From: a virus
IMG/VR virus record: IMGVR_UViG_3300025141_000856
Location: 1-22,300 of that record
DNA length: 22,300 nucleotides
Direction: 5' to 3' (one strand)
Shown here: piece by piece, positions 1 to 22,300 of the stretch
How the letters are laid out: each line of letters starts with the position of its first letter
Position numbering within the stretch: position 1 is the first letter of the stretch
The notes under the pieces: generated by a model
The model's input: the letters and a program-made list of their open reading frames with translations, nothing else
Databases searched by the model: none
What the model was told of the DNA's origin: nothing
Made by a program: the position numbers and the translations under genes

Positions 1-1296
1 ACCTGCACAATCTATTCCTTTAGCGGTTGTAGTTGCAGCATTCCAGTTGGCAAATGATGGGTCTGGACAGCCAAATTGTTTATACATACAACAGCTATCC
101 CAGTCCTTGGTTTGCATATATAACTCACCATAGTATTCTCCATTAGAGGCTGGGTTATAGTCCCATGTTGACCCATAGTCATCTCCTGTTCCCATCGTGT
201 TACAGCCGGAGAAAAGAATATTATTGGAGTTACCATATGTCGCAGGGTCACCCACACCTACCGGGCTTTCCCAAAGGTCTGGTGCACCATTCCATAATGG
301 TGTCACGTCCGTTCCACTATTATAACATGGGTGATGAACGGGCTTTCCTTGACAATCAAAACATCCATTATCTTGGGGTATTGGGTCGGAGGCAATATTA
401 AAACCATTTAAAATAGAATTGTTTGAAATACATCCTGTAGGGGATAGATTAGATGGAGGTCCCATACAGACTCCATTAGGGCTACAGTTTTGGTCTTCAC
501 AAGTATCCCATACTGTTGAACTTGGGGGACAATTAGCTATCAAATCATGCCCACCTGGTATTGCTTGAGAAGGTATACCTGTCCCATAATCCATAGAATT
601 TAAACATGAAGATAGTGGACAACCATCATTATTTGTTGAACCAAGAGTTAATGGTGAAATACATAAACTAATATAAGGAAATCCTCCTTCGTTGGGTGCA
701 TTTTGGATTCCACATTGCACCGAGTACCCTAACCAACTACAATAGAACCAACTATTGGGTGCCCACGACCATCCTCCTGGGTTTCCACCCCATAAGTAAT
801 ATTCAAATGTAACGTCTAACCTACCATTTCCGGCCCAACTGTAAGTACCACAAGAGTTATTCATCCATTTGCCTCTGTCAGGGTGTAATTGATAAAGACC
901 TGCGTAAATTTGACCACATCTTTCTATTTGTCCTACATTAAAATACCATTGTTTAGTTGATGTTGACTTCATATATATCCCAGTAGTTCCTCCTGGAAAC
1001 CATCCCTGGTCCCAAGTATCTTCGTGTGAAGTGTAAGTACTGTTTCTAACAAATTGATAGAAAAATGGCATCTTACCAGCATACATACCAGAACAAAGAC
1101 AAGAACATGAGTCATTATTTAAAGCTGAAGGATTTCCACCTGCAGCAGCACTATCGTAATTAGCCATACTAAAAGCTGAATATTTAGAAGATGGATTTTG
1201 ATAGACATTAGGATAGTTATAACCCACACCCCATGTAACTGCTCCTATTCTTTCAGTTCCTAATGATGGTCCTGATGCATTTCCTGGACATCCCAT
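1..1296 (-). CDS. Cys-rich secreted/adhesin-like structural protein, 3' end cut by window edge
   Basis: An uninterrupted frame runs from ATG at 1296 to the left edge: 432 codons without a stop, and an in-frame TAA (1302-1300) just upstream fixes the start. The protein has no obvious signal peptide or membrane segment. It is rich in Gly, Asn, Ser, Trp and Tyr and has more than 20 cysteines, many close together (SCSCLC near residue 64). The last 25 visible residues (about 408-432) match the GC.DP...N..A.....DC pattern of small Cys-bounded repeats common in secreted proteins of marine Bacteroidetes, so more copies may follow outside the window. The gene lies 19 bases after the PKD/SprB-like gene and is probably co-transcribed with it. 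I infer a virion surface, tail-fibre or adhesin role. No enzyme motif is visible, and I do not recognise the family beyond that repeat. Confidence 0.8.
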   Translation of the reverse strand, partial: MGCPGNASGPSLGTERIGAVTWGVGYNYPNVYQNPSSKYSAFSMANYDSAAAGGNPSALNNDSCSCLCSGMYAGKMPFFYQFVRNSTYTSHEDTWDQGWFPGGTTGIYMKSTSTKQWYFNVGQIERCGQIYAGLYQLHPDRGKWMNNSCGTYSWAGNGRLDVTFEYYLWGGNPGGWSWAPNSWFYCSWLGYSVQCGIQNAPNEGGFPYISLCISPLTLGSTNNDGCPLSSCLNSMDYGTGIPSQAIPGGHDLIANCPPSSTVWDTCEDQNCSPNGVCMGPPSNLSPTGCISNNSILNGFNIASDPIPQDNGCFDCQGKPVHHPCYNSGTDVTPLWNGAPDLWESPVGVGDPATYGNSNNILFSGCNTMGTGDDYGSTWDYNPASNGEYYGELYMQTKDWDSCCMYKQFGCPDPSFANWNAATTTAKGIDCAG

Positions 1297-1315: not shown

Positions 1316-3247
1316 TTAATCATTAGTTTCTACTAATATCGTTATTTGTTTAGTACAACCTTTATCATCTAATATTGTAAAGGTGTAAAGACCTGCTGTT
1401 GGCCCATTTATATTTGTATAATTGCTAGGACAAAGATTGTCAAAGAAAATATTATTATATTGCCCATTTATTGGATAAATAGTTGTAGATTCTCCCGTAT
1501 TATCGTTCGTAATTGTATATTCTAAACTTCCCATATTAAAACCACTTATTTCTACTACACCATCACAATCAAAACTATTGGTCATAATTCCATTTGCGTC
1601 AGTTAAAGTAATAGTAGTGCATTTTTGGACATTAATTATAGATAAATTAAGATTTTGTATTTCAGTACAGCCACAATTACCATTACACTCCTCTAAACTA
1701 GCAAACATATTATTTTGAGATAATAAAGTAGAATAAGTAGATTGCCCTGTGGTCTCATCTATCCAACTGTTTTGTGGTACTTCACTGCACACTGTATTAA
1801 CACACTCAAATAACCTATCTAGTGGAGTTATATTACTTACTGGTGGGATTATTGGGGTAGGTAATGGGGACATCTCAGCTTGTGGTCCCCCATAGACTAT
1901 AGCAGAACCCACTGCACCACCTCCTGATGGTCGTGTTTGGGTACCAGAAGTGGTGAGCCTCCATCCATGTCCGCTTCCACAGCTGTTTATACATTCAGCC
2001 TCAGTACAATATAAGTCACTTCCTTGTCCAGAATGATATACCCCATTTGAGTCTGGAGGTCCTAACCAAGTCATCATATCTGCGTAATTTCCTGAAAGAC
2101 TTCCAGGCCCCCATCCACTATCTAGATAGAATTGAATTGTGAAACAATCTATACCCATATGACATATCCAACAGTCTAACTGAGGGTTTGTAGGACAGTC
2201 ACAGCCTTCTTCTTCTTCTTCTCTACAACAATAATAATCTATATTATTATGGTTTAATCCCATGCTCATTGCAGAATATGCCGTGGTTCCACCACTATAA
2301 TCGATATAGTTAATGTCATTTAAGGTATAAGCTGTATACCAAGAAGAAAGAGTTGTTATTACTCCTGTACCAGATAACCCCACATCTACAACACTTCCTA
2401 CATTTGGGTAGGGATTAGTTCCATATTGTTTTAATACATTTAACTGACTAGTGTACGAATGTCCTGTTACAGGAAAAGGTGTAGTTACCCAACTACTACT
2501 TAATGTGTCCCACACATCTGGATTACTATCACCCCAGAATATCCAATCTTGTGTTACTGAATCACACCCTATTGGGTCGCCGATATTAGGGGCAAGAAGA
2601 GAAAAATTACCAAATGGATTAGGTATTACTGGAGTATTAAAATATGGAATAGGTATTGTCTTAGATATAAATGTAGTGCCCCACGGATTTATTTGACTTA
2701 ATGTTATCGTGTATCCTGTACTTGGGGTGGTGTATGTATGACTTGCAGTAACCTGTAATGGAGGTGTAAGTTGTGCGGTGTTACCGTCACCCCAATCTAT
2801 ATCGTATGGTGCAACTCTTAAGAATTTTCTAAATTCTAAATCTGCAGTATTAAATACTGTAATACTATTATTATTACCTGTGTATACAAAATTAGCTAAG
2901 ACATCTCTTTGTACTGCTAAACCATCAAAAGGTGTATAAACACCAATATCGTTAAAATCTTGAGTTAACAAAATAGGAATTGTAATTCCAGTTAGGCATG
3001 GGGAAGGGTCAGGAAGTGGTGCAGTAGACGTTAAACTTCTCCATAAGTCACACCTATAATCATCTCTTACTTTTGCTTTCCAATAATCACATTTTCCAGA
3101 TTGATTAAAGAAACAATTATTGCAATTTTGTCCTTGAATAGATGAGAGGTACTGGTCCGACACATAGTGGGGCGGTAGTTGTATTGGTATTGCATCCAAT
3201 TGTCCTGGATATAATCTTCTTCTAATTTGTAAAGAGTGTGTTTCCAT
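1316..3247 (-). CDS. PKD- and SprB-like-module Cys-rich phage surface protein (643 aa)
   Basis: A modular protein with no catalytic motif. Residues 42-66 hold four cysteines spaced C-x2-C-x7-C-x12-C (C42, C45, C53, C66) among aromatics, like a small metal- or Fe/S-binding knuckle. Residues 148-200 look like a PKD domain (YDIDWGDG, then SHTY). Residues 233-300 look like a second, degenerate one (FWGD, then HSY). The middle, 335-530, is Cys-rich and includes CC followed by EEEEE at 340-347. The C-terminus (about 527-641) ends with AGLYTFTILDDKGCTKQIT, the hallmark end of a SprB repeat from Bacteroidetes gliding adhesins. PKD and SprB modules are known for extracellular binding, so a role in host attachment is inferred. 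It starts 3 bases after two tandem TAG stops of the preceding gene. No signal peptide is seen, as expected for a virion protein. Alternative: a minor tail or whisker protein. Confidence 0.85.
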   Translation of the reverse strand: METHSLQIRRRLYPGQLDAIPIQLPPHYVSDQYLSSIQGQNCNNCFFNQSGKCDYWKAKVRDDYRCDLWRSLTSTAPLPDPSPCLTGITIPILLTQDFNDIGVYTPFDGLAVQRDVLANFVYTGNNNSITVFNTADLEFRKFLRVAPYDIDWGDGNTAQLTPPLQVTASHTYTTPSTGYTITLSQINPWGTTFISKTIPIPYFNTPVIPNPFGNFSLLAPNIGDPIGCDSVTQDWIFWGDSNPDVWDTLSSSWVTTPFPVTGHSYTSQLNVLKQYGTNPYPNVGSVVDVGLSGTGVITTLSSWYTAYTLNDINYIDYSGGTTAYSAMSMGLNHNNIDYYCCREEEEEGCDCPTNPQLDCWICHMGIDCFTIQFYLDSGWGPGSLSGNYADMMTWLGPPDSNGVYHSGQGSDLYCTEAECINSCGSGHGWRLTTSGTQTRPSGGGAVGSAIVYGGPQAEMSPLPTPIIPPVSNITPLDRLFECVNTVCSEVPQNSWIDETTGQSTYSTLLSQNNMFASLEECNGNCGCTEIQNLNLSIINVQKCTTITLTDANGIMTNSFDCDGVVEISGFNMGSLEYTITNDNTGESTTIYPINGQYNNIFFDNLCPSNYTNINGPTAGLYTFTILDDKGCTKQITILVETND

Positions 3248-3250
3248 CTA

Positions 3251-4192
3251 CTATATTGGATTTATATATTCCCAAAACTCTATTGGGGTGTTTATGTTGG
3301 TTCCAACTCTTGTTCCTGCTAAATCTTCAATCCAATAAGTAAAATTATTTTTGTCTAATAATAATCTATAATACATATTAGTAGCTGGGTCAAAACTAAT
3401 TTGATTAGGTATGGAAGTAGGTAAGACATTGGTAAATCTCGTTACTTCTCCATCTCTTCCATTATAAAACTTAGCAGACATAAAAAAAGTATTAATGTTT
3501 AAATATGTGCTTTCTTTTAACCAATAAAAAAAATAACCTATACTCCTATTATCCATATCAAAATCATAACGTGGGGTCGGTACGTTTCTAACAGTATCTA
3601 ATATAATGTTTATACCACTGGCATCAAATATTGGTGAGTCAGGCACATTCATATTTAAATCCGCCCATGCTGCTGTTTGATTGGGTACTACTGAAATATT
3701 CCTACAATCAGCATCTATTGAACATAATGGTCGTCTTGTACCATTTACTGGACTTAGTAAATTGGACATATAAAATTTTTGTCTAGTCTTGACTGGACTA
3801 TCATGAAAATCTAATTTAAAAAAACTCTTTAATAAATCAGATGTATTTTCCGATAATTCTACATTATTATATCCTTTAAAATTAAATCCAAAAGGAAATG
3901 GTTGGGCTGGAGGTGCAATAGGTAGTAAAGTAGGCCATGTATTAGTAAGTTTATCAAAAAAATTAAATTGGTAGAAGATATCGGGACTTTCTTCACTATT
4001 ATCAAATAAAGGAGCATGTCTAAATCTAGTTACTTCAAAATCTTTAGTAGGATTTACTAATTGTCTAACTACGTCGTTCTCATATACTTTTATTAAATCT
4101 TCTCTACCAGCTTCATCAAAAGTAGTGCCAAACCCTAACTGAATAGTCGGGTCTTTTGTATTGATATTAAATATAAATTTATTCGCAGCCAT
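3251..4192 (-). CDS. Hypothetical tail/baseplate-cluster protein (313 aa)
   Basis: I do not recognise this family. The protein is soluble-looking, with no signal peptide or hydrophobic segment. It is rich in Asn, Phe, Asp and Pro, and a beta-rich fold is plausible. Only two cysteines are seen (C157 and C163, in the CSIDADC stretch). Its ATG lies inside the end of the preceding 598-aa gene, with a 14-base overlap, so the two are probably translationally coupled; it is followed after 3 bases by the PKD/SprB-like gene. Its place downstream of gp25 and gp6, and its length near that of T4 gp8 (334 aa), make a baseplate or tail accessory role plausible, but I see no sequence likeness to gp8. Role inferred from position only. 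Confidence 0.8.
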   Translation of the reverse strand: MAANKFIFNINTKDPTIQLGFGTTFDEAGREDLIKVYENDVVRQLVNPTKDFEVTRFRHAPLFDNSEESPDIFYQFNFFDKLTNTWPTLLPIAPPAQPFPFGFNFKGYNNVELSENTSDLLKSFFKLDFHDSPVKTRQKFYMSNLLSPVNGTRRPLCSIDADCRNISVVPNQTAAWADLNMNVPDSPIFDASGINIILDTVRNVPTPRYDFDMDNRSIGYFFYWLKESTYLNINTFFMSAKFYNGRDGEVTRFTNVLPTSIPNQISFDPATNMYYRLLLDKNNFTYWIEDLAGTRVGTNINTPIEFWEYINPI

Positions 4193-5975
4193 CTATTAAA
4201 AATTCGTCTATTATTTCTGTTATTCCTGTAACTGACAGGTCTGATTCCGCTCTAATTTGTTTTTGAACATAAAATGGAATAATCTTACTAGGGTATTGTG
4301 CATTATTCATAAATGGATAATCTACTCCATGACCACCATCAATAAACCCTATTTCCCACAAATCTCTCCATCTCCATGTTTTTTCTCTTTCCCAATATTC
4401 AGCCCAATCTGGTATATTAATTACTTCTTGTGGGTCACCAAATTCAATATAGGTAGAAAATCTCCTAATTGGGACTTCATGGTGTGGTTTATATATGTAT
4501 CCTTTTTGTCCATCTATGGTCCCTTGTCCCATCATAAAAACCGCGTTATTCCATGAAAACTGATGTTGTATTTCACTTATAACTCTTTCTTTAAGTTCTT
4601 CTGCATTATATTCACAAAAGTCCCCCCTCAATAAATCCCCTACTCGTAATTCTGTACCTCTAATTAATGCACTACCACCAGGTAGTGGGTCCACTATTAG
4701 TCCTGAAGGTTGTTCGTCCCCAACACTTCCTCCTCTTACTATATTAGGTCCTACCGGACCAAAAGGTAAAGGAACTGCTGCAGCATCCGATACTCCATCA
4801 ATGGATGTATCCATATAAGTCAGTGGAAAATTCCATTCCCATCCATATTTTGGTGGATATAAAAAATATCCTAGATTATTTCTTAAAAATACTGTTACAT
4901 ATAAATTAGTTAACGGCCTCCCTAAATTATCTCTTAATGTTTTAACATCTATATCTCTATTAAAAGAATACAAATAAGAAGGATATGAATTTTTAATCGA
5001 TATCCTACAGGTTGCAGTGGGTGTTACTCTGTCTATTTGTTTTACATCAGGAAATACACCTTGTTCAAACCCACAGTCGTCTAATACTGCATCTGATACT
5101 TCAGTTAAAATTTTATTTATTCTAACATAATAACTAGAAATACTTTCTGAGTTAGCTTTATTCGTTTGTCTTCTCATAGTTCCCATTGAAAGATTAGGTA
5201 AAGCTGGGAACCCTACTACGGTTCCTTGTGGAATTAAAAGATTAAATATTTTTTCTGAAGACTTTCTAGTCGAATCCCCTACGCTATAAACAGGAAATAC
5301 ATTATCTCGCAAAGTGTATGTTGTTCCTTGTCCATTATCCATATTTAATACCACATATTCTCCTTTACTTAATCCGTGTGGGGCAGAACAATAGAATCTA
5401 ATCATATCTCTTCCGTTAAATACAATTTGTTGAGTATAAAAAGGAATTCCTTGATTAGCTAAAAAAGCAATCGCGTTGGTTGTTGGGGACTGTTCCATCT
5501 GATACCACATTCTTTGGTCACTCTTACATTCAGAAGGATAGCTAAGAAACATATTCCAATTAGTAGTGGTAGAAACAAATTCATCTAAGTCTTTTCTTTT
5601 CATATCAAACTCTTGAAACTGGGGATATCCTGCCCATGGTGAATATGCTGTTCCTCCTGAACTATGAATATAGTATAATTGTTGAAATAAAAGAGTAGTG
5701 AATCCACTTGAACTGGAGGAGGTATTTGTGTTTATTGCTAATCCACTATAATCATTATCTACAAAAGGTGATATCTTACCATAAACTCTATAATTACTTA
5801 TATTTTGTCTCTCTTCATTAAATCTCTCATTAATATTAAGATTAACTGTTCTATCGCCTTGTATTAAAGTTCTGGAAGTATCATTTAATGAAACCTGAAA
5901 AGTTAAATCTTCCTCAGTTGCCCCAGCAAATTTTTTAGTTGGTATTACTTTTAATATGTTTTTTCTATTTCCCAT
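4179..5975 (-). CDS. Hypothetical baseplate/tail structural protein (598 aa)
   Basis: A large soluble protein without a recognised enzymatic motif, signal peptide or membrane span. The N-terminal third is rich in Asn, Thr and Ser, with a run of Ser and Thr near residue 85. The C-terminal quarter (from about 446) reads GDLLRGDFCEYNAEELKERV, then a Tyr-Lys-Pro-His-His stretch and a Trp/Tyr/Arg-rich segment (about 520-545); it looks like the most conserved part and could be a docking domain. The gene starts 3 bases after the stop of the 1171-aa membrane-type protein and overlaps the next gene by 14 bases, so the three genes probably form one translation block and possibly one complex. A role as baseplate wedge or tail protein is inferred from its place directly after gp25 and gp6. 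I cannot assign it to a T4 gene. Confidence 0.82.
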   Translation of the reverse strand: MGNRKNILKVIPTKKFAGATEEDLTFQVSLNDTSRTLIQGDRTVNLNINERFNEERQNISNYRVYGKISPFVDNDYSGLAINTNTSSSSSGFTTLLFQQLYYIHSSGGTAYSPWAGYPQFQEFDMKRKDLDEFVSTTTNWNMFLSYPSECKSDQRMWYQMEQSPTTNAIAFLANQGIPFYTQQIVFNGRDMIRFYCSAPHGLSKGEYVVLNMDNGQGTTYTLRDNVFPVYSVGDSTRKSSEKIFNLLIPQGTVVGFPALPNLSMGTMRRQTNKANSESISSYYVRINKILTEVSDAVLDDCGFEQGVFPDVKQIDRVTPTATCRISIKNSYPSYLYSFNRDIDVKTLRDNLGRPLTNLYVTVFLRNNLGYFLYPPKYGWEWNFPLTYMDTSIDGVSDAAAVPLPFGPVGPNIVRGGSVGDEQPSGLIVDPLPGGSALIRGTELRVGDLLRGDFCEYNAEELKERVISEIQHQFSWNNAVFMMGQGTIDGQKGYIYKPHHEVPIRRFSTYIEFGDPQEVINIPDWAEYWEREKTWRWRDLWEIGFIDGGHGVDYPFMNNAQYPSKIIPFYVQKQIRAESDLSVTGITEIIDEFLIDGCE

Positions 5976-5978
5976 AAT

Positions 5979-8900
5979 TTAATCTAATGGTGGCATGTAA
6001 CCATTAATAAATTTATCATATGCATTATTTCCTTGATATAATCCAAAATAGTAATGATAATACCCCATAGATACTTCATTGGTCGTTGGAATAAGGGGGA
6101 TAATTGGACCTGTTGGTGGGACAATTATCGGTCCTGGTTGAGCTCTATTACTTATTATAGTCATACTAGTACTATCTACAGCGTCCCAATTATTGTTTAA
6201 AGTACCAAATTGTGGACTCGTTTTCATCCATGGATAATATGGAATGGTTTGAGAAAAGGCGTATCCAGTACTATCTCCCATTATTTTTGTTCTTAACCCT
6301 TGATTAGAAATAATGATTGGTTTATTAGCAAACGCATCATTAATCTCAACGTCGATAATAGTTGGGGGTAATGGACCATAGTTAGGGTCTTCTGGATAAT
6401 AAAATGGGCTCATATATTTATGTACCCCTATCTCATTATTAAAAGCAATTGCTTGTGAAATATCACCATCTAATAATCTATGTTGTCCTCCTGAGATTCC
6501 TGCACTAGTAGCTTTTAGTTTTCTCTTATTTCTATTGGTGGCACCCCCTGTAGCTGGGAAACCAAATACCTGCCAACCTCTAGTCCCACCAAACCAATTG
6601 TTAATTCCCGTGTATTGTATTTCCCACCAATCATAATTCATTAATTTCTGATTAATAAAGTAATCTAGAATACCTGCAGGAGATTTAGCGGAACTTGATT
6701 CTAACTGGTCTATATAGAAATCATTATTTTGTTGGTTTTCACAATCTATACATGAATTATTAGTAGTTAGGTCTTCAAATGTTCCTAACTCCAATATAGC
6801 AGTAGGATAATTAATACCTTTATATTGGAACCTGTACTGTAAAGTATCTGGAGTTCCGTCAGGCTGAGTATAGTTAAAGATAAAATTAGCATTAGGGTTA
6901 CTAGTTTGGAAAGTTCCAGCTCCTGAAGGATTATAAGGACAACTTCTATAATAATATTCGTTAGGATTAGTAAAACCGTCATCAGGACCTACTATTACAT
7001 CCCTACAAAAATAATCTGTAGTTGTTTCTGTTAATGTATTAGGGTCTGTAGTTACTATTCTCTTATTATCAAACCTAAAATGGTAAAGAGTACCTCTAAT
7101 CCATGAGGCCCAAAATCCCATATTAAATACTCCTTGACAAAGACCGTTATAAATATTCTTTCTAACTCTCCATTCATTTAATCCAAAAAATATCTTGCTC
7201 AACCTAGTTAACAAGAAAAATCCTAATATTACTACAAATCCATCAATTATTAATTCCATTATGATTGGGGATAAAGCTGCACCAACACCAGGAATCAATG
7301 CCGTAACAGCTCCTATGGTTATCATTGTCCATACTGCTGCTGTAAACATACCCTTAAATCCTGAACCATCATAACTAATAATATAACAACCTTTCATACT
7401 AGTACCATCTTTACCTTCAGTATCTAGCTCTTCATTATGTTCATCACTATAATATAAGATACTCGCATCTCTCAATGCAGGAATTTGGCAGTTAGGGTCG
7501 TCGACTAATGGATTACCAGAAGATTGTTCTATATCCCCAACACCAAAAAGACTAGGAAAATCTAACTCAAAAAAGCTACCGCAATTACAATCTTCACATT
7601 CATCATATTTGGTGAGTGGTAATCTGTATTTTACAGAATCTATCAATCCAACTACTAAATTTGCTAAAACTATCGTAAAAATAGCTACTGCTAATGCAAA
7701 TGCAAACTGACCTATTGCCGAAAGAATTGCACCTAAAGGAAGCATCCCCGCCATCCCAATCACTATATTCAATATTTGTGTCATTGCTACTGCTAAAGCG
7801 GCTACTGCATTAGCAATATTCATGAGCAAACTATACATTTGTATGATAATAAAGACAGCCATAATAGCAAAGGGCACAAATATAGATAAGACTGTTAAAA
7901 ACAGTGTTAGTTGACTCATTAGGAATATAAATGACCCACCTCTAAAACCATCATTAGCTGGAAATTCTTTTATACTTCCACTACAATCTGTTTCTTTAGC
8001 GGGATTAGTACTTTTTATTCCTATGAAACTCCATCTATCTCTTTTAGCACTATATCCACCAAACATGGTTCCTCTACCAGGAAGGTCAGCATCAAAAGAA
8101 TTGCCGTCAAAAGGATTATTATTATAATCATTTCTATAAATGTCTATAAAATTTGAAAGTGTATATACCCTATCTGGAACCATTTCATAAAAATAATCTT
8201 CACCTAAAAACGCAGGAGAACTAAGATAATTATCACATTTCGTTTGGAGTGTTGTGCCCATATCATGAGGATAATCTAATAAATCTGTGGAAAATTGATA
8301 ACTAGAAATCATATCATTAGTGTATTCTCGAATATTTGGAACTAGATACTTTCCTTTACGTGACTCAGAACTAACTTCACTATCGAAACTAATTCTGAAT
8401 CTATATTTTCCCCTTGTTGGCACTCCTATAGCGGGGTCATCAGATATTTGTTCGTTTCCAAATTCATCGGTATAAATATAATCTAAATTCATTGGCACTT
8501 TAGCTACAAATGAACCAGTACCATCTATATTATGTAAATTAATTTTTTCTAATTTAGGTCTACATGCACAATTGGGGTTTGCGTCATCATTCTCTTTAAA
8601 TACCGTAAATCTAATTGCCTCTATCTTTCCACTACCTGTAGTTAATTTGCAAACATCCCCCTGACTTCTACCAGGGCCACATTTCCACCCTAAACTACCA
8701 CTATTATCATCACTAATAATACTTCCCATAAATAAAGCGTTAGGTCTAAACTCTACGTTTGAATCTCTTAGGTCAAAATCAGCTCGGGATATACCTGAAT
8801 TACACATTTCATCATCTCCCCAGAAAGAAACAGATTCTATTGTTTTGTTCTGAATTACTATTTGTGGTAAAGTATCTAAATTCTCGGAGTCACTAAAAAC

Positions 8901-9494
8901 TGCTGAATTTTTAAATTTTTCTATAGATACTCCTTGTGAAACAAAATCAAAAGGTTTCATAGAATAACATCCAATATCACTAACATCTACAGACATATGG
9001 AGTTGGTGGATTCCTAACGGAACTCCCCAAATCATATAATCACCATTCTCATTAGTTTTTACAGTAAATTTATAATATTTTTCGTAGACCTCTAATTTAA
9101 GTGGATTAGATATAGTTTCTTCCGCTGTTAAAAAACTTCCTGTAGGTGTATGTCTATTATGTTGTTTAGTGGTAGGTAAGAGATTATATCTGTATCCTTC
9201 TTCATTTTTATCCGTAACATCCTTAAATGGATACATCTCTTTTATTGCTTGGTCTTCTTCATCTTCTGCGGTTAAAGGAATGAATATAGAAAGTTTAGCA
9301 TTAGGCACTCCTAGTCCGCTATTGGCGACTACTCTTCCTACAATTACACCATAGTCTGCACACATTCGTGCGTACACCTCTGACTGGGTCAATTTTAGAC
9401 TCAATACTTCTAAAAGGTCAAAGTCTTGTTGTAAATTTACCTTAACAAAACTATCTTTACCTACGTTAGTTCTTATTCTATATGATTTGGGCAT
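5979..9494 (-). CDS. Giant baseplate-cluster protein with carboxypeptidase-regulatory-like domain and several hydrophobic membrane-type segments (1171 aa)
   Basis: Visible architecture: an N-terminal head (1-47); a carboxypeptidase-regulatory-like beta sandwich split by an insertion (about 48-72, GVIVGRVVANSGLGVPNAKL; and 142-171, TNENGDYMIWGVPLGIHQL); a long soluble region to about 515; hydrophobic segments at about 521-556 and 560-617, enough for about four spans; a Cys-containing loop (CEDCNC, 632-637); two more probable spans at 716-763; and a soluble C-terminal part of about 400 residues. It directly follows gp25 and gp6, the place of gp7 (1032 aa) in T4, but I see no likeness to gp7, which is not a membrane protein. 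Possible roles are a baseplate or tail protein that inserts into the host membrane during DNA entry, or a protein anchoring assembly at the membrane. The reading frame and composition are solid; the function is inference. Confidence 0.88.
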   Translation of the reverse strand: MPKSYRIRTNVGKDSFVKVNLQQDFDLLEVLSLKLTQSEVYARMCADYGVIVGRVVANSGLGVPNAKLSIFIPLTAEDEEDQAIKEMYPFKDVTDKNEEGYRYNLLPTTKQHNRHTPTGSFLTAEETISNPLKLEVYEKYYKFTVKTNENGDYMIWGVPLGIHQLHMSVDVSDIGCYSMKPFDFVSQGVSIEKFKNSAVFSDSENLDTLPQIVIQNKTIESVSFWGDDEMCNSGISRADFDLRDSNVEFRPNALFMGSIISDDNSGSLGWKCGPGRSQGDVCKLTTGSGKIEAIRFTVFKENDDANPNCACRPKLEKINLHNIDGTGSFVAKVPMNLDYIYTDEFGNEQISDDPAIGVPTRGKYRFRISFDSEVSSESRKGKYLVPNIREYTNDMISSYQFSTDLLDYPHDMGTTLQTKCDNYLSSPAFLGEDYFYEMVPDRVYTLSNFIDIYRNDYNNNPFDGNSFDADLPGRGTMFGGYSAKRDRWSFIGIKSTNPAKETDCSGSIKEFPANDGFRGGSFIFLMSQLTLFLTVLSIFVPFAIMAVFIIIQMYSLLMNIANAVAALAVAMTQILNIVIGMAGMLPLGAILSAIGQFAFALAVAIFTIVLANLVVGLIDSVKYRLPLTKYDECEDCNCGSFFELDFPSLFGVGDIEQSSGNPLVDDPNCQIPALRDASILYYSDEHNEELDTEGKDGTSMKGCYIISYDGSGFKGMFTAAVWTMITIGAVTALIPGVGAALSPIIMELIIDGFVVILGFFLLTRLSKIFFGLNEWRVRKNIYNGLCQGVFNMGFWASWIRGTLYHFRFDNKRIVTTDPNTLTETTTDYFCRDVIVGPDDGFTNPNEYYYRSCPYNPSGAGTFQTSNPNANFIFNYTQPDGTPDTLQYRFQYKGINYPTAILELGTFEDLTTNNSCIDCENQQNNDFYIDQLESSSAKSPAGILDYFINQKLMNYDWWEIQYTGINNWFGGTRGWQVFGFPATGGATNRNKRKLKATSAGISGGQHRLLDGDISQAIAFNNEIGVHKYMSPFYYPEDPNYGPLPPTIIDVEINDAFANKPIIISNQGLRTKIMGDSTGYAFSQTIPYYPWMKTSPQFGTLNNNWDAVDSTSMTIISNRAQPGPIIVPPTGPIIPLIPTTNEVSMGYYHYYFGLYQGNNAYDKFINGYMPPLD

Positions 9495-9509
9495 ACATTA
9501 CTTTAACAG

Positions 9510-9516
9510 ATAAATA
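9510..9516 (-). promoter_or_regulatory. TATTTAT motif upstream of the 1171-aa gene
   Basis: On the minus strand the leader reads AAATATTTATCTG, with the heptamer ending 15 bases before the ATG. The same heptamer is found 14-22 bases before three other gap-preceded genes, so it may be a phage promoter element or leader signal. It is the reverse complement of the T4 late-promoter core and so does not match that promoter in this direction. Inference only. Confidence 0.3.
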
Positions 9517-9567
9517 TTTGTTCTGTCAAAATTAAAAGTAATATACACTACCTATTTGTAAATCTAA

Positions 9568-11406
9568 TTATGTTATGGATGGTTGGGCTAAAGATTTAAT
9601 CCTTACAGCGATATCTTTATTCGGTAACTTAACCTGAAATATTTGATTAGGTTGTGCAAATAATGTACCATCAATTAAAGCTATCTCTTTTGTTATTGGA
9701 TTTTTATATGGTTGGGATACTGTATTTTCAGAATATTCACCTCCCACATTATTTATCAATCTTATATCTACTAAATTTATAACTCCTGGTTGGTTTACTA
9801 TATCTTTGGTTAGTTCTCCTGTAAAAACATCTTTACCCATTTCTTTATTATCAGGACTGAAAAACGTTGTTGTCTTATCGATAATATTGGTTATAATGTC
9901 CGATTGATTATATCCTGGGTCTATAATTAAGTCTAGTTCTACACTTAAATCAATAACTTCAGCAGAAGTTACGCTTATATAATCATTTAACATTCTATAA
10001 TCAGAAAGATATTCAGCGATATTTTTCATCATCGTCGTGCTTACTTTGGAACTTAGGGAGCCGTCTTCTGAATAAGATAATAAATTAATAAAAACCTTAT
10101 TCTCTACTTCCATTACCCCTACTTTTGCGGGTGAACCAAATATGCTAGGCATTGTTTGTATTCGGGAAACATAATCATTAACCGTTACCGCTCTTTCTTG
10201 AGCAGAAAAATTAAACGAGATATAATTTCTTATTTCTTCTACACTTGGTTGATTGGCTCCCCCAATTGCTGAAGTTACATTATTAACAGTTAAAGAATCT
10301 CTTACAGAGGAATTAATACTACTTATAGGACCGTTAATTGCAAAATCTATACTAGATACGGTATTAATACTATTAGGACCTACATTAGTCCCTTTACCTC
10401 CACCTACACGATATTGGATAAAGATTGTTGTATTAGATTGTGGTGCTTTACCAAGTGATAAATTATTCATATATTGATTTAAATCTAGCTTATATCCTGT
10501 TGAAGTCAGTTCGTCTAATGAATCTTCTGCTGAACTACTTCCACCACCTAATGTTAGAAAAAAGAACCCTTCAGGTGTGTACTCCGTAATAAACCTTTGG
10601 TCTGTATTTTGCCATTTACCTATTTTAATTCCTGGTTTATCAGACTTCTTACTATTCTGCTCAATGAATACTTTGTCTTGTACTAACGCTTCTACCTCAT
10701 ACCACTTATTTGTTGCGTTAATGAAATCAGTATTTTTTGGTAGAGATTGTATACTAGTACCGTCTTTCTGCATTACTGCAGTAACACCTAAAACGTTTTT
10801 CTCTGGTAAAAATACTTTAAGAAATGGTTTAACATCAGTACTAGTTATTACTTTTTTAAATACTTTAGTTACTCCGTTAACTACTACTTCTCGTTTAGTT
10901 ATAGTATAATTAATAACATTTCCATTTGCATCAAAATTAGGGGTTTTGGTTCGGTTTGGGAATCCTTTACTGTCATATGCATTCGCAAAATCCACGTCAT
11001 TCACTAACTCAAATACCTCACCTGCTCCTTTAAATTGTGAATTTCTACGTAATAATCCTAAGTATCTTGTATTTTCCTTATCTCCCATTACTGGTACAGT
11101 AACAGACAAATCTGCCACTGCTACTGAAGGACGATTTCCTGGTATTTTTAAACCATAAGTTCTTGCTATATTATACAGTGAAGACCTTTGTTGTGCATAT
11201 TCTAAAACTGTCTCTTGAAGACTTCTATCAATATGATAGTTTAGATTATCACCAATTGCCGCGTTTAAATCTAATAAAACTGAAAATATAGAAGCGTCAT
11301 TGGCATTTTGAATTAGGTCCGGATATTGTTGTTTTACATATTTTAATAAGTCTGTTCTTAATCCAACAAAATCTCTTTCTGTATATGATATTTTATTATT
11401 TGCCAC
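9568..11406 (-). CDS. gp6: Baseplate wedge protein gp6 (T4-like, baseplate_J-type)
   Basis: A homologue of the T4 gp6 wedge protein, which forms the inner iris of the baseplate around the hub. The N-terminus is typical (SYTERDFVGLRTDLLKYVKQ, then DASIFSVLLDLNAAIGDNLNYHIDRSLQE). The C-terminal half carries the baseplate_J-like core (about residues 390-560), with SAQERAVTVNDYVSRI, then VINLVDI. Its length of 612 aa is near the 660 of T4. The start is GTG, overlapping the gp25 stop as TAGTG; an in-frame TAA three codons upstream leaves no ATG choice, so the GTG start is well supported and coupled to gp25 translation. The order gp25 then gp6 fits a wedge assembly unit. After its stop a 73-base gap leads to the 1171-aa gene. 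Confidence 0.93.
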   Translation of the reverse strand: MANNKISYTERDFVGLRTDLLKYVKQQYPDLIQNANDASIFSVLLDLNAAIGDNLNYHIDRSLQETVLEYAQQRSSLYNIARTYGLKIPGNRPSVAVADLSVTVPVMGDKENTRYLGLLRRNSQFKGAGEVFELVNDVDFANAYDSKGFPNRTKTPNFDANGNVINYTITKREVVVNGVTKVFKKVITSTDVKPFLKVFLPEKNVLGVTAVMQKDGTSIQSLPKNTDFINATNKWYEVEALVQDKVFIEQNSKKSDKPGIKIGKWQNTDQRFITEYTPEGFFFLTLGGGSSSAEDSLDELTSTGYKLDLNQYMNNLSLGKAPQSNTTIFIQYRVGGGKGTNVGPNSINTVSSIDFAINGPISSINSSVRDSLTVNNVTSAIGGANQPSVEEIRNYISFNFSAQERAVTVNDYVSRIQTMPSIFGSPAKVGVMEVENKVFINLLSYSEDGSLSSKVSTTMMKNIAEYLSDYRMLNDYISVTSAEVIDLSVELDLIIDPGYNQSDIITNIIDKTTTFFSPDNKEMGKDVFTGELTKDIVNQPGVINLVDIRLINNVGGEYSENTVSQPYKNPITKEIALIDGTLFAQPNQIFQVKLPNKDIAVRIKSLAQPSIT

Positions 11407-11864
11407 TATAAATTAATTATTACAAAATCTTTAGTTTCGAACGCACTACTAGTAGTGGTGAAATCAACTCTTACTTTAGCTGTATATTCTTCTGCAGCAG
11501 CACCAGAAACCCTATATACTCTATCATCATTCGTAGTAACTAATGTGCCTTCTGTTTCTTCTGCTTCTAAAATTGGTGTTACATCTATACTGTCTATCCT
11601 TAGGTTTGGTATGTATTTGTCTACTTGTTCTCTTATTTCTGCTTCAATAGAATCAAAAGTTGGTGTATCCATTGGTTCAAATATATATTCGTATAGTCTC
11701 GTACCAAAATCAGGTAAGAAATACCTCATTCCTTTTCTGGTTAAAAGTAAATGTATTAAATCTGCTTTAATCTCGTCTTCTGGGGTTTCGGTTAAATCAA
11801 ACATGTAACCCAACCTACTCTTATTTAAAGGAAAATTTATCCCGTATGTTCCGAATTCTGGCAT
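11406..11864 (-). CDS. gp25: Baseplate wedge protein gp25 (GPW_gp25 family)
   Basis: A small baseplate protein that contacts gp6 and the first sheath ring and helps start sheath assembly. Its 152 residues fit the family (T4: 132). Diagnostic stretches are FDLTETPEDEIKADLIHLLL (23-42), GMRYFLPDFGTRLYEYIFEP (45-64), and a C-terminal strand with acidic linker (IDVTPILEAEETEGTL). Despite old descriptions of this family as lysozyme-like, I see no lysozyme catalytic arrangement and call it structural. It is the first gene after a 78-base gap behind the ribonucleotide reductase, so a promoter could lie there. Its stop overlaps the gp6 start by one base. Alternative: the paralogous W/gp25 protein of contractile injection systems, but the phage context decides. 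Confidence 0.93.
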   Translation of the reverse strand: MPEFGTYGINFPLNKSRLGYMFDLTETPEDEIKADLIHLLLTRKGMRYFLPDFGTRLYEYIFEPMDTPTFDSIEAEIREQVDKYIPNLRIDSIDVTPILEAEETEGTLVTTNDDRVYRVSGAAAEEYTAKVRVDFTTTSSAFETKDFVIINL

Positions 11865-19927: not shown

Positions 19928-22300
19928 TTACGAACCAGAATTGTAAGATTGTGGTGTTCCTGTGAAATCACCACTTATAAGTGTTGGTTTTATAGTTAGA
20001 TTTAATTTTTTAGCAATCATATCTTCAATTAAGTCAGGTTTTACATAACTCATATTGTCTTCTGCAAACCAGGTCGTTGATAATCCTACATTATTATTAG
20101 CAAAGCTTAACAGTTGTGGCCATACAACTTTTAAGTAACCGTTTAATTTATCTTTTAGTTTTCCGTCCAATGCATTTTGTACTTTAAAACAGGGGCACTT
20201 TTTATTACCAAAATCATTATGTCCTCTTACAAGTTGTTTGTATGTTTCTCCAGCCACCCCATTTAATGGTGATGGGATATGTTTTGGCCATGCGACGATT
20301 CCTTGTGGTCCCATTATTGTTAATTGTATAACTGCAGGTGATACACTATCATCTTTTGTTATTCTAAATATTCCTAACTTAAACAATTGAAAGATAATAA
20401 ATCTTTCTAGAGATGAGTTTTGGGCTGCTGTTGAAAGTTCGCCTGATGTTGAACCATATGGTTTATCACTACTACAGTTAGATATAAGGGCTATACTTAA
20501 AGTATTGCTATTTACATCTAAAACATGTGCTCCTTGGTATGTGTCTGGTCTTGCGGTTAAAATTGTACCACTCCTATCTCTATTTACCAAATAATGAAAA
20601 GCTATACCAGCAAAACCTAAATCCTTATGGGTCACATTTAAAGTTCCTACTGGGTCATTACCTAATTCCACATTCCCTGTAGAATGAAGAATTATCATAG
20701 TTATCTTTCCTGTCATTGGTAAAGCTGGTGGGTTAGGTCCTGTATCTTTTTCTACTCCCTCTGGTCCAAATCCGCTAACTTGAACATCTGTCACCACTTT
20801 TCCTTTTACCCTTTCAATAAATGATTTATTAACTTTTGAAACTATGTCTTCAATATTTGGTAAGTCAAAAAATGGTGACCTAATACCAGTAAAAGATGTT
20901 TCCATATTATTAGGGCTGATATTATGTTCTACATCTGTAATTAAGTATGGTCCCGTAAACATAGGCACATAACGTAAATTAAAATACATTGTAGGTTGTA
21001 TGCATGCATTTCCCATCGCATTAATTTTTGCAGTGTAAGACCTACTTCTATAAATGTTAAATAAATTTAATCCTTGTGTAGAAATTGTTTTGTCGTTAGA
21101 AGAGTCTGCTAATTGTTGTGTTAGTCTAAATGATTCAGCTGTATTTCTAAATTCGTTCTGGTCTAAAGTAACCCCTTTAAATACACCTTGATTTTGTATT
21201 CCAAAATCTACATTAAAAGCTACAACCTTGTTGCACTTTGTTGGGTCTGTGCAATTAGAAAATAAAGGATTGTCAGAAGTTCTACCTAATAGGAAAGAAT
21301 CAGTATCATAACGATATATGTCCGATTGTACATTTATGTGTTGTGAAGGTTCTCCAACATACATACATAAAAATTTAGGTGAAGAATCTATATAATCTAC
21401 CTCCATATGTGTACCAAATAAGGCATTAGCTTCATCACTAGTATTATATTTAGATATTTGTTCTCCATTTATATTGGTTACCCCATAAAAATTAATATAA
21501 CTAGGTAATGGTAAGAAATGAAAATTATTCTCCTTTAATACTGCTCCAATAAAACCTAATAATGTTGTATTTGCATTACTTTCCATTGCTAATAATTTAA
21601 ATGGTTCAACATCTATAATAGCTTTATCTCCTATATCTCTATTCGCTCTATCAAAGAATAAAAAATCCTCAAATAAAGTTTTATCACTAAATTCTTCACC
21701 CGCAACCCATTTATCATTTAATGTTTTAAAGGTTTGATATATTTCTAATTTTTGTACATCAGTTTTAAATATAGGGTCTATATCGTCTATTTGTGTTCTA
21801 ACAGGTATTTTATCAAATATTGTTTTACTCTGTAGAAACACTTCATTTAGATGCACAGCCTGAGAATCGTCTAATCCACTAATTAATTGACTTATTTTTT
21901 CTTTAAACTGAGTTACAAACCCTGTAGGTTCTGGATAAGGTGTTACTGTATTTGTATTTACTACTGCACTAGATACTCTAGTAGAAGATATAGGTTCTTG
22001 CCTTATTCTTTCTGTTACATACATTCTAATTACCTTCCTAAGTAATTTAATATTTGTTTGTGTGAAATCTATATCTAGAGACACAAAAAAATCTGTTATC
22101 TCTGACCCTAAATCATTATAGTGAAGGGTTGGTAATTCTGGGTCATCAAAGAATCCAACGTGTAGGGCTAAACTAGCCCATTCTGCTGGATAAGTTGCTT
22201 GAGATACTGCTACAGTAACATCAGGTGGGAGGTTATTTTGGTAGGACCCAAAATTATAATAATCTTTCTCCCCACTTATGGTACGAAGTACTTTTAAATC
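19928..22300 (-). CDS. Tail hub-like protein fused to a T7-lysozyme-type N-acetylmuramoyl-L-alanine amidase, 5' end outside window
   Basis: The frame is open from the right edge (22300) to the stop at 19928: 790 visible codons. A GTG at 22084 is in frame but is not the start, because 72 codons lie upstream without a stop. Residues here count from the edge. About 1-530: hub-like part; the segment FTGPYLITDVEH (448-459) before an ISPNN...T.FTG.R stretch resembles tail-hub proteins. About 533-720: amidase of the PGRP/T7 lysozyme family, which cuts the bond between muramic acid and the peptide stem. Visible are H539 (ILHSTG), H569-Y570 (FHYLV), H592 (QGAHV), H694, K700 and C702 (GHNDFGNKKCPCF), with the same spacing as T7 H122, K128 and C130, so zinc site and catalytic Lys look intact. 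The position before the acidic genes and the fusion suggest an entry lysin, as T4 gp5 has, rather than an endolysin. Confidence 0.88.
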   Translation of the reverse strand, partial: DLKVLRTISGEKDYYNFGSYQNNLPPDVTVAVSQATYPAEWASLALHVGFFDDPELPTLHYNDLGSEITDFFVSLDIDFTQTNIKLLRKVIRMYVTERIRQEPISSTRVSSAVVNTNTVTPYPEPTGFVTQFKEKISQLISGLDDSQAVHLNEVFLQSKTIFDKIPVRTQIDDIDPIFKTDVQKLEIYQTFKTLNDKWVAGEEFSDKTLFEDFLFFDRANRDIGDKAIIDVEPFKLLAMESNANTTLLGFIGAVLKENNFHFLPLPSYINFYGVTNINGEQISKYNTSDEANALFGTHMEVDYIDSSPKFLCMYVGEPSQHINVQSDIYRYDTDSFLLGRTSDNPLFSNCTDPTKCNKVVAFNVDFGIQNQGVFKGVTLDQNEFRNTAESFRLTQQLADSSNDKTISTQGLNLFNIYRSRSYTAKINAMGNACIQPTMYFNLRYVPMFTGPYLITDVEHNISPNNMETSFTGIRSPFFDLPNIEDIVSKVNKSFIERVKGKVVTDVQVSGFGPEGVEKDTGPNPPALPMTGKITMIILHSTGNVELGNDPVGTLNVTHKDLGFAGIAFHYLVNRDRSGTILTARPDTYQGAHVLDVNSNTLSIALISNCSSDKPYGSTSGELSTAAQNSSLERFIIFQLFKLGIFRITKDDSVSPAVIQLTIMGPQGIVAWPKHIPSPLNGVAGETYKQLVRGHNDFGNKKCPCFKVQNALDGKLKDKLNGYLKVVWPQLLSFANNNVGLSTTWFAEDNMSYVKPDLIEDMIAKKLNLTIKPTLISGDFTGTPQSYNSGS

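Follow-up and report, generated by a model that had tools for sequence, protein, structure and literature searches.

Several contractile machines are known to be tied to a membrane through anchors linked to their baseplates. In the thylakoid-anchored contractile injection system (CIS) of Anabaena, Cis13 forms a fibre-like trimer, and its single transmembrane (TM) helix is at the C-terminus; the Cis12 extension has none (PMC8894136). Hbor_38620, the anchor of the Halogeometricum CIS, which resembles a type VI secretion system (T6SS), has six TM helices (PMC11566945). TssN of the Bacteroidota T6SS has five and is encoded between tssK and tssG (PMC10781749), and CisA of Streptomyces is a single-span anchor of a cell-bound contractile system. 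Among phage tail proteins, each of the two hydrophobic regions in the TP901-1 tape measure has three putative spans, and the first region is needed for infection (PMC5099701). No phage example of a baseplate-attached membrane part was found in the literature searched. The protein considered here has 1171 amino acids (aa) and is encoded in a 22,300-base stretch of viral DNA (IMG/VR record IMGVR_UViG_3300025141_000856; hereafter the window). As originally predicted, its open reading frame (ORF; 9494..5979, minus strand) lies directly after genes matched to gp25 and gp6 by Pfam and PHROG. It is tentatively read, with a probability of about 0.42, as a baseplate component that is gp7-like in position only and carries a separable membrane-inserting module which would enter the host envelope at docking.

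The middle of the protein is strongly hydrophobic, as the original prediction had it. A Kyte-Doolittle (KD) scan with 19-residue windows and a threshold of at least 1.6 finds six segments (533-551, 556-574, 577-595, 600-618, 716-734 and 744-762); 1000 shuffles of the same composition give a mean of 1.2 and a maximum of five. The 100-residue run 519-618 is free of D, E, K, R and H. The stretch 716-763 had also been described as uncharged, which is not strictly correct: it bears E747 and D751. None of the other window ORFs checked has a hydrophobic segment of this type.

The six KD windows match an earlier count of about six spans; other methods reduce this number. On the apparent-free-energy scale for membrane insertion (published parameters; glycophorin A and polyleucine score -1.1 and -7.5, as expected), the energies in kcal/mol are -2.2 for 529-551, +0.6 for 574-595 (weak), -2.3 for 597-618, +0.5 for 716-737 and -1.4 for 748-770, and the better count is four to five segments. 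AlphaFold was run on the whole protein (41 sequences; mean confidence score (pLDDT) 66.7) and on residues 486-812 alone (18 sequences; helix pLDDT mostly 75-88). Both models contain four helices arranged in two hairpins (~517-580, 587-620, 711-733 and 737-786), with lengths of 59-64, ~33, ~20 and ~50 residues. Given the free-energy scan and these models, the protein is better put as having four long predicted hydrophobic helices in two hairpins, not six short spans. The exact topology is left undecided because the first and last modelled helices exceed one bilayer crossing; since the first is about 60 residues long, it is not certain that residues 517-620 form a simple two-crossing hairpin.

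A favourable predicted insertion energy is conserved across the family, which by prediction makes these integral membrane proteins. The loop between TM3 and TM4 averages 0.1 K/R and 0.1 D/E, while the run following TM4 averages 3.1 K/R versus 1.2 D/E. Because this loop is nearly uncharged, as is the TM1-TM2 loop in the window's own protein, and positive residues follow TM4, the hairpins could enter a membrane from one side, with no charged domain having to cross and with the soluble scaffolds staying together.

Relatives are encoded at no fewer than 392 IMG/VR loci according to a profile search; 80 of these stretches were fetched for comparison. Close relatives in viral contigs are 59-78% identical over the full length. 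Members fall into two size classes, short (~1140-1180 aa) and long (~1590-1780 aa); the extra length of the long form is a large insertion between a C-x2-C-x-C motif (CxxCxC) and a W-R motif near residue 775. Favourable segments number mostly 3-4 in the short form (22 proteins) and mostly 2 in the long form (25 proteins), which has no free-energy segment at the position of the second hairpin. Each of the 47 full-length members examined has its first hydrophobic segment starting at residues ~494-531. About half of shuffles of this composition yield a segment on the free-energy scale; consequently, the constant position and number of segments speak for a function more than their presence does. 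Long-form homologues also bear a small cysteine-bearing insert (C.C..YT...) at varying sites, at residues ~1000-1090 in L071 and near the C-terminal third in L050 and L054; judged by its sequence, this insert resembles a mobile domain of structural proteins.

One relative (L094, 2879-5113; 744 aa) comes from a contig of 7 kb that is deposited with a bacterial metagenome-assembled genome. This protein retains the N-terminal region, the C-terminal YYFYFGL motif and the YDFYNSWINGSLYSFGF motif, located after the second hairpin in other members; the hairpins and the CxxCxC motif are both missing. Since this relative keeps both flanks without the module, the hydrophobic module is, on alignment, separable from them.

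The module is flanked by two large soluble regions (residues ~1-500 and 787-1171), which agrees with the original prediction. In the model, residues ~45-250 form a beta sandwich like those of transthyretin and carboxypeptidase regulatory domains, with a large insertion. VIA-align comparison of this domain with domains of carboxypeptidases N, D and M and of teneurin gives Z ~6-7 and a root-mean-square deviation of 1.9-2.7 over ~80 residues. Pfam CarboxypepD_reg (PF13620) matches 12 of 20 relatives weakly, below the cut-off in all (best 0.0026). The N-terminal part may thus be a transthyretin/carboxypeptidase-regulatory-like domain, although this is not settled. Eight cysteines are near-invariant: C45, C231, C282, C504, C633, C636, C638 and C786. 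The last five of them bracket the hairpins. C504 (41/41) precedes the first hairpin, C633, C636 and C638 (all 38-39 aligned relatives) form the CxxCxC motif, and C786 (36/36) follows the second hairpin.

The position of the gene invites comparison with gp7 of phage T4. Both genes directly follow gp6, here in the window and at ~80 related loci, and the two proteins are similar in size (1032 aa for T4 gp7). They differ in that gp7 has one TM-like segment near its C-terminus, in contrast to several mid-protein helices and a CxxCxC motif here. Homology to gp7 can be rejected: hhalign gives a probability of 0.1%, and none of 18 aligned members matches a gp7 PHROG, while T4 gp7 itself matches PHROG 964 (baseplate wedge) with E=0. 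The original prediction described the T4 protein in this place as soluble. It is a solved wedge subunit; however, it contains a TM-like segment of its own at 886-904 (L106, 7061-10159; KD 2.07, -0.2 kcal/mol), and its GenBank note predicts an integral membrane domain at the C-terminus. The controls T4 gp6, gp10 and gp11 have no TM-like segment.

Related gp6 proteins are found in the cultured Flavobacterium phage immuto and Microcystis phage Mel-JY01. In these two and in the metagenomic LR756508 (484 kb), gp6 is followed by different large proteins without spans. Homology to the post-gp6 proteins of immuto and Mel-JY01 was rejected (hhalign 0.1-0.2%, no hydrophobic segments). In phage XM1, the N-terminal helix-turn-helix of gp17 joins the (gp6)2-gp7 core bundle (PMC10457771); no such helix-turn-helix is present in residues 1-42 of the model, where pLDDT is only 36-53.

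The XM1 bundle and the TM-like segment of the solved T4 wedge protein both lend support to a different explanation, in which the helices never meet a membrane and instead form a helical core within the baseplate, packing mutually or with neighbouring wedges. The excessive length of the modelled helices is in keeping with this, as is the finding that the helical part has soluble bundles (a FlgL fragment, Spelter) besides channels among its structural neighbours, all with Z <8. However, 100 residues without D, E, K, R or H and insertion energies to -2.3, reaching -4 in relatives, lie far beyond T4 gp7. In addition, the module changes quickly in sequence while its hydrophobicity is kept: in the same relatives, identity is 27-29% over residues 486-812 and 36-43% over the full protein. 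A tightly packed core would behave differently. Such a core is unlikely, if less so than the other alternatives below.

Insertion of the helices into lipid instead of burial in protein is likely, and presence of the protein in virions somewhat more so; action at docking rather than during assembly is mildly favoured. The protein would be a wedge-level component, for which the analogy with T4 suggests about six copies, and a hairpin-inserting protein at this level fits both the operon position and the charge pattern of the hairpins. The beta-rich N-terminal half and the C-terminal part would form the scaffold that joins the baseplate, while the one or two hairpins between them, with conserved cysteines on either side, would stay tucked in as long as the virion is free. 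When the tail docks, the hairpins would enter the host envelope; once inserted, they would keep the baseplate pressed to the membrane and may help the tube through during sheath contraction. The conserved hydrophobic helices suggest that the baseplate in this large, so far uncultured group of contractile-tailed phages can bury part of itself in a bacterial membrane.

A number of observations weigh against this membrane-inserting role. The architecture is not fixed, as the segment count ranges from 0 (L094) through 1 (L066 and the distant members L093, L095 and L096, on other contigs) to 5. Modelled helices of 59-64 and 50 residues are too long for one bilayer crossing, and the TM1-TM2 loop, uncharged in the window's protein, averages 2.1 acidic residues in 18 relatives. 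T4 gp7 and gp29 have one TM-like segment each, so that a bilayer crossing is not proved by finding such segments in a tail protein. Presence in virions is a prediction, for a group with no cultured relative among the phage records searched. Finally, the tape-measure candidate of a relative, discussed below, is assigned from position and sequence character and has no family match.

Gene order speaks for a virion protein. As far as the contigs extend, the order gp25, gp6, homologue of the 1171-aa protein, ORF598, ORF313, ORF643 is kept across ~80 loci with gp6 identities as low as 55-60%; at the most distant loci (gp6 identity 32-43%), gp6 upstream and ORF598 downstream are retained. Tail-sheath genes are present in six of nine longer related records. 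A membrane protein with some other role, such as host takeover or lysis, that happens to lie in the operon would be in keeping with the lack of direct virion evidence but is very improbable: practically all loci have the gene in its place between gp6 and ORF598, the spacing is tight (73 bp after gp6, 3 bp before ORF598), and lysis and takeover proteins do not typically have a large beta-rich scaffold.

Table 1. Features of the 1171-aa protein and its neighbours in the window.
Feature	Position	Strand	Basis or remark
1171-aa baseplate-operon protein with membrane-type module	5979..9494	-	ATG start; read 9494 down to 5979
N-terminal soluble region, residues ~1-500	7995..9494	-	beta-rich in model
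Predicted first hydrophobic hairpin, residues 517-620	7635..7946	-	strongest segments 529-551, 597-618
C-x2-C-x-C motif (C633, C636, C638), directly after first hairpin	7581..7598	-	near-invariant
Predicted second hydrophobic hairpin, residues 711-786	7137..7364	-	segments 716-737, 748-770
C-terminal soluble region, residues 787-1171, ending in conserved motif YHYYFGLYQGNNAYDKF	5982..7136	-	alignments
gp25-like sheath initiator/baseplate wedge	11406..11864	-	Pfam GPW_gp25 3e-12
gp6-like baseplate wedge protein (Baseplate_J), upstream neighbour	9568..11406	-	PHROG 219 3.9e-22; Pfam Baseplate_J
ORF598, conserved downstream neighbour without family match	4179..5975	-	synteny
ORF313, conserved downstream neighbour	3251..4192	-	synteny
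ORF643, conserved downstream neighbour, 25 Cys	1316..3247	-	synteny; Cys count

All long genes of the window are on the minus strand. In order of transcription they encode a hub-amidase fusion, an acidic coiled-coil protein, a gp32-type single-strand binding protein, a RecA-like protein, a 5'-3' exonuclease, a DnaB-type helicase and a B12-dependent ribonucleotide reductase, followed by gp25, gp6, the 1171-aa protein, ORF598, ORF313 and ORF643. The first of these, a fusion of a hub-type protein with an Amidase_2 cell-wall hydrolase (19928-22300, minus strand; also L099, 2294-8710), has 2138 aa in the relative G002. The gap between gp6 and the 1171-aa gene (9495-9567) ends in a sequence, with ATTTATCTGTTAAAGTAATG just ahead of the start, that is conserved in close relatives and is a possible late promoter. 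Two proteins in the distal tail region are rich in cysteine (1-1296, minus strand, 24 Cys; 1316-3247, minus strand, 25 Cys), whereas gp6 and gp25 of the window have none. Tails stabilised by disulfides have been reported for phage Milano (PMC10811340).

The relative G002 has 190 kb and a tail sheath; the analysis covered an 80-kb region of structural genes surrounding the gene, with 51 ORFs that are 130 aa or longer. The homologue of the 1171-aa protein is the sole ORF of more than 200 aa among these with a segment below 1 kcal/mol. A tape-measure candidate located upstream of the hub genes (54560-56623, 687 aa) has no segment below this value. The 1171-aa protein itself was rejected as a tape measure: its gene follows gp6, its model is mostly beta outside the hydrophobic part, and G002 has this separate helical candidate.

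Formation of a genome-entry pore is often the job of a tape measure. The combination of a span-less candidate and a span-bearing homologue of the 1171-aa protein in G002 would suit a protein that is released into the host inner membrane as a DNA channel, as would the requirement for the first hydrophobic region of the TP901-1 tape measure in infection (PMC5099701). However, a protein in the wedge position should lie at the cell surface and not within the tube; segments fall to 2, 1 or 0 in relatives, which is odd for an essential pore; and the likeness of the helical part to channel folds reaches only Z ~5-7. Matches of the whole model to helices of pentameric channels, Kir and TRPML, in this same range, are at the level of soluble bundles and are not used as evidence. 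A multi-span DNA channel formed by a wedge-position protein, as the original prediction had considered, is one of the less likely versions and is quite improbable. It is doubtful, though slightly less so, that in a widespread phage lineage the membrane-crossing apparatus has moved from the tape measure to a wedge protein. The latter would form a ring of about six subunits, each with two hairpins at most, that inserts on docking as a pore or collar for tube and DNA; in some lineages the module would have been reduced to a single hairpin or have disappeared.

There are few clues to the host. No Shine-Dalgarno-like motif precedes any of the 14 window start codons checked. Missing Shine-Dalgarno motifs are usual in Bacteroidota, and these 14 starts suggest a host in this phylum. 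A 1637-aa homologue with gp25, gp6 and ORF598 as neighbours (L093) is located on an 83.8-kb contig (QCKH01000004.1) filed under Prochlorococcus AG-409-L21; this contig may represent either an infected cell or a co-sorted virus. Prochlorococcus is not adopted as host, since no paper on the AG-409-L21 contig was found and the viral records searched yielded no psbA.

The family is widespread and, as far as searches reach, undescribed. Searches of PHROG, Pfam, NCBIfam and PDB sequences gave no match worth keeping for the 1171-aa protein or its relatives, and in tblastn four family members had no matches, or chance ones only, among 50,697 phage records. The sole full-length structural match is A0A8S5LA66, an uncharacterized protein of Myoviridae sp. 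ctPuP5 in BFVD (Foldseek E 6e-50, 22% identity over ~1020 columns). A fold search with the helical domain gave nothing above common helical arrangements, and no description of the family was found in literature searches. This agrees with the original view of such a protein as possibly undescribed; the general arrangement has precedents in injection systems (PMC8894136, PMC11566945, PMC10781749).

The anchors in these precedents (Cis13, Hbor_38620 and TssN) work in the producing cell, and they bring in an anchor for assembly, also considered in the original prediction. Here the protein would sit in the inner membrane of the producing cell and gather wedges, like TssN or the anchors of cell-bound CIS; an even number of helices would put both soluble parts on one side. 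Unlike cell-bound systems, a free phage must detach from the membrane after assembly, and a strongly conserved soluble scaffold of ~900 residues in the middle of the operon looks structural, not detachable. An assembly anchor is improbable, about as much so as the relocated crossing apparatus described above.

The proposed membrane-inserting module bears on the passage of tube and DNA through the inner membrane in contractile phages, and on whether a baseplate itself grips lipid. This protein family of aquatic phages, in which the module varies stepwise and is absent in one relative, is a ready comparison set for module function. With tape measures that have spans (TP901-1, T4 gp29), it shares the property of a tail protein with membrane-type helices, which are thought to aid crossing of the inner membrane by DNA; it differs in being a beta-rich product of a wedge-cluster gene, with a separate span-less tape-measure candidate in G002.

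Through this family, phages are also connected with bacterial and archaeal contractile injection systems that are anchored in a membrane. Like Hbor_38620 and TssN, the 1171-aa protein is a multi-span protein tied to a contractile baseplate, by prediction; those are separate anchors with a small cytoplasmic domain, are not from phages, and show no sequence link to it. No Pfam match to TssN was found in the relatives, and the window's protein has no Pfam match at all, in a library whose inclusion of a TssN model is unverified. A Cis13-type anchor was rejected, as 1171 aa with several internal helices differ from a fibre-like protein with a single C-terminal TM helix. Like Cis12 and Cis13 of Anabaena, it is encoded in the baseplate cluster and would attach a contractile machine to a membrane by way of the baseplate. 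The Anabaena machine sits in the membrane of its own cell; in contrast, the phage would act on that of its victim, or during assembly only.

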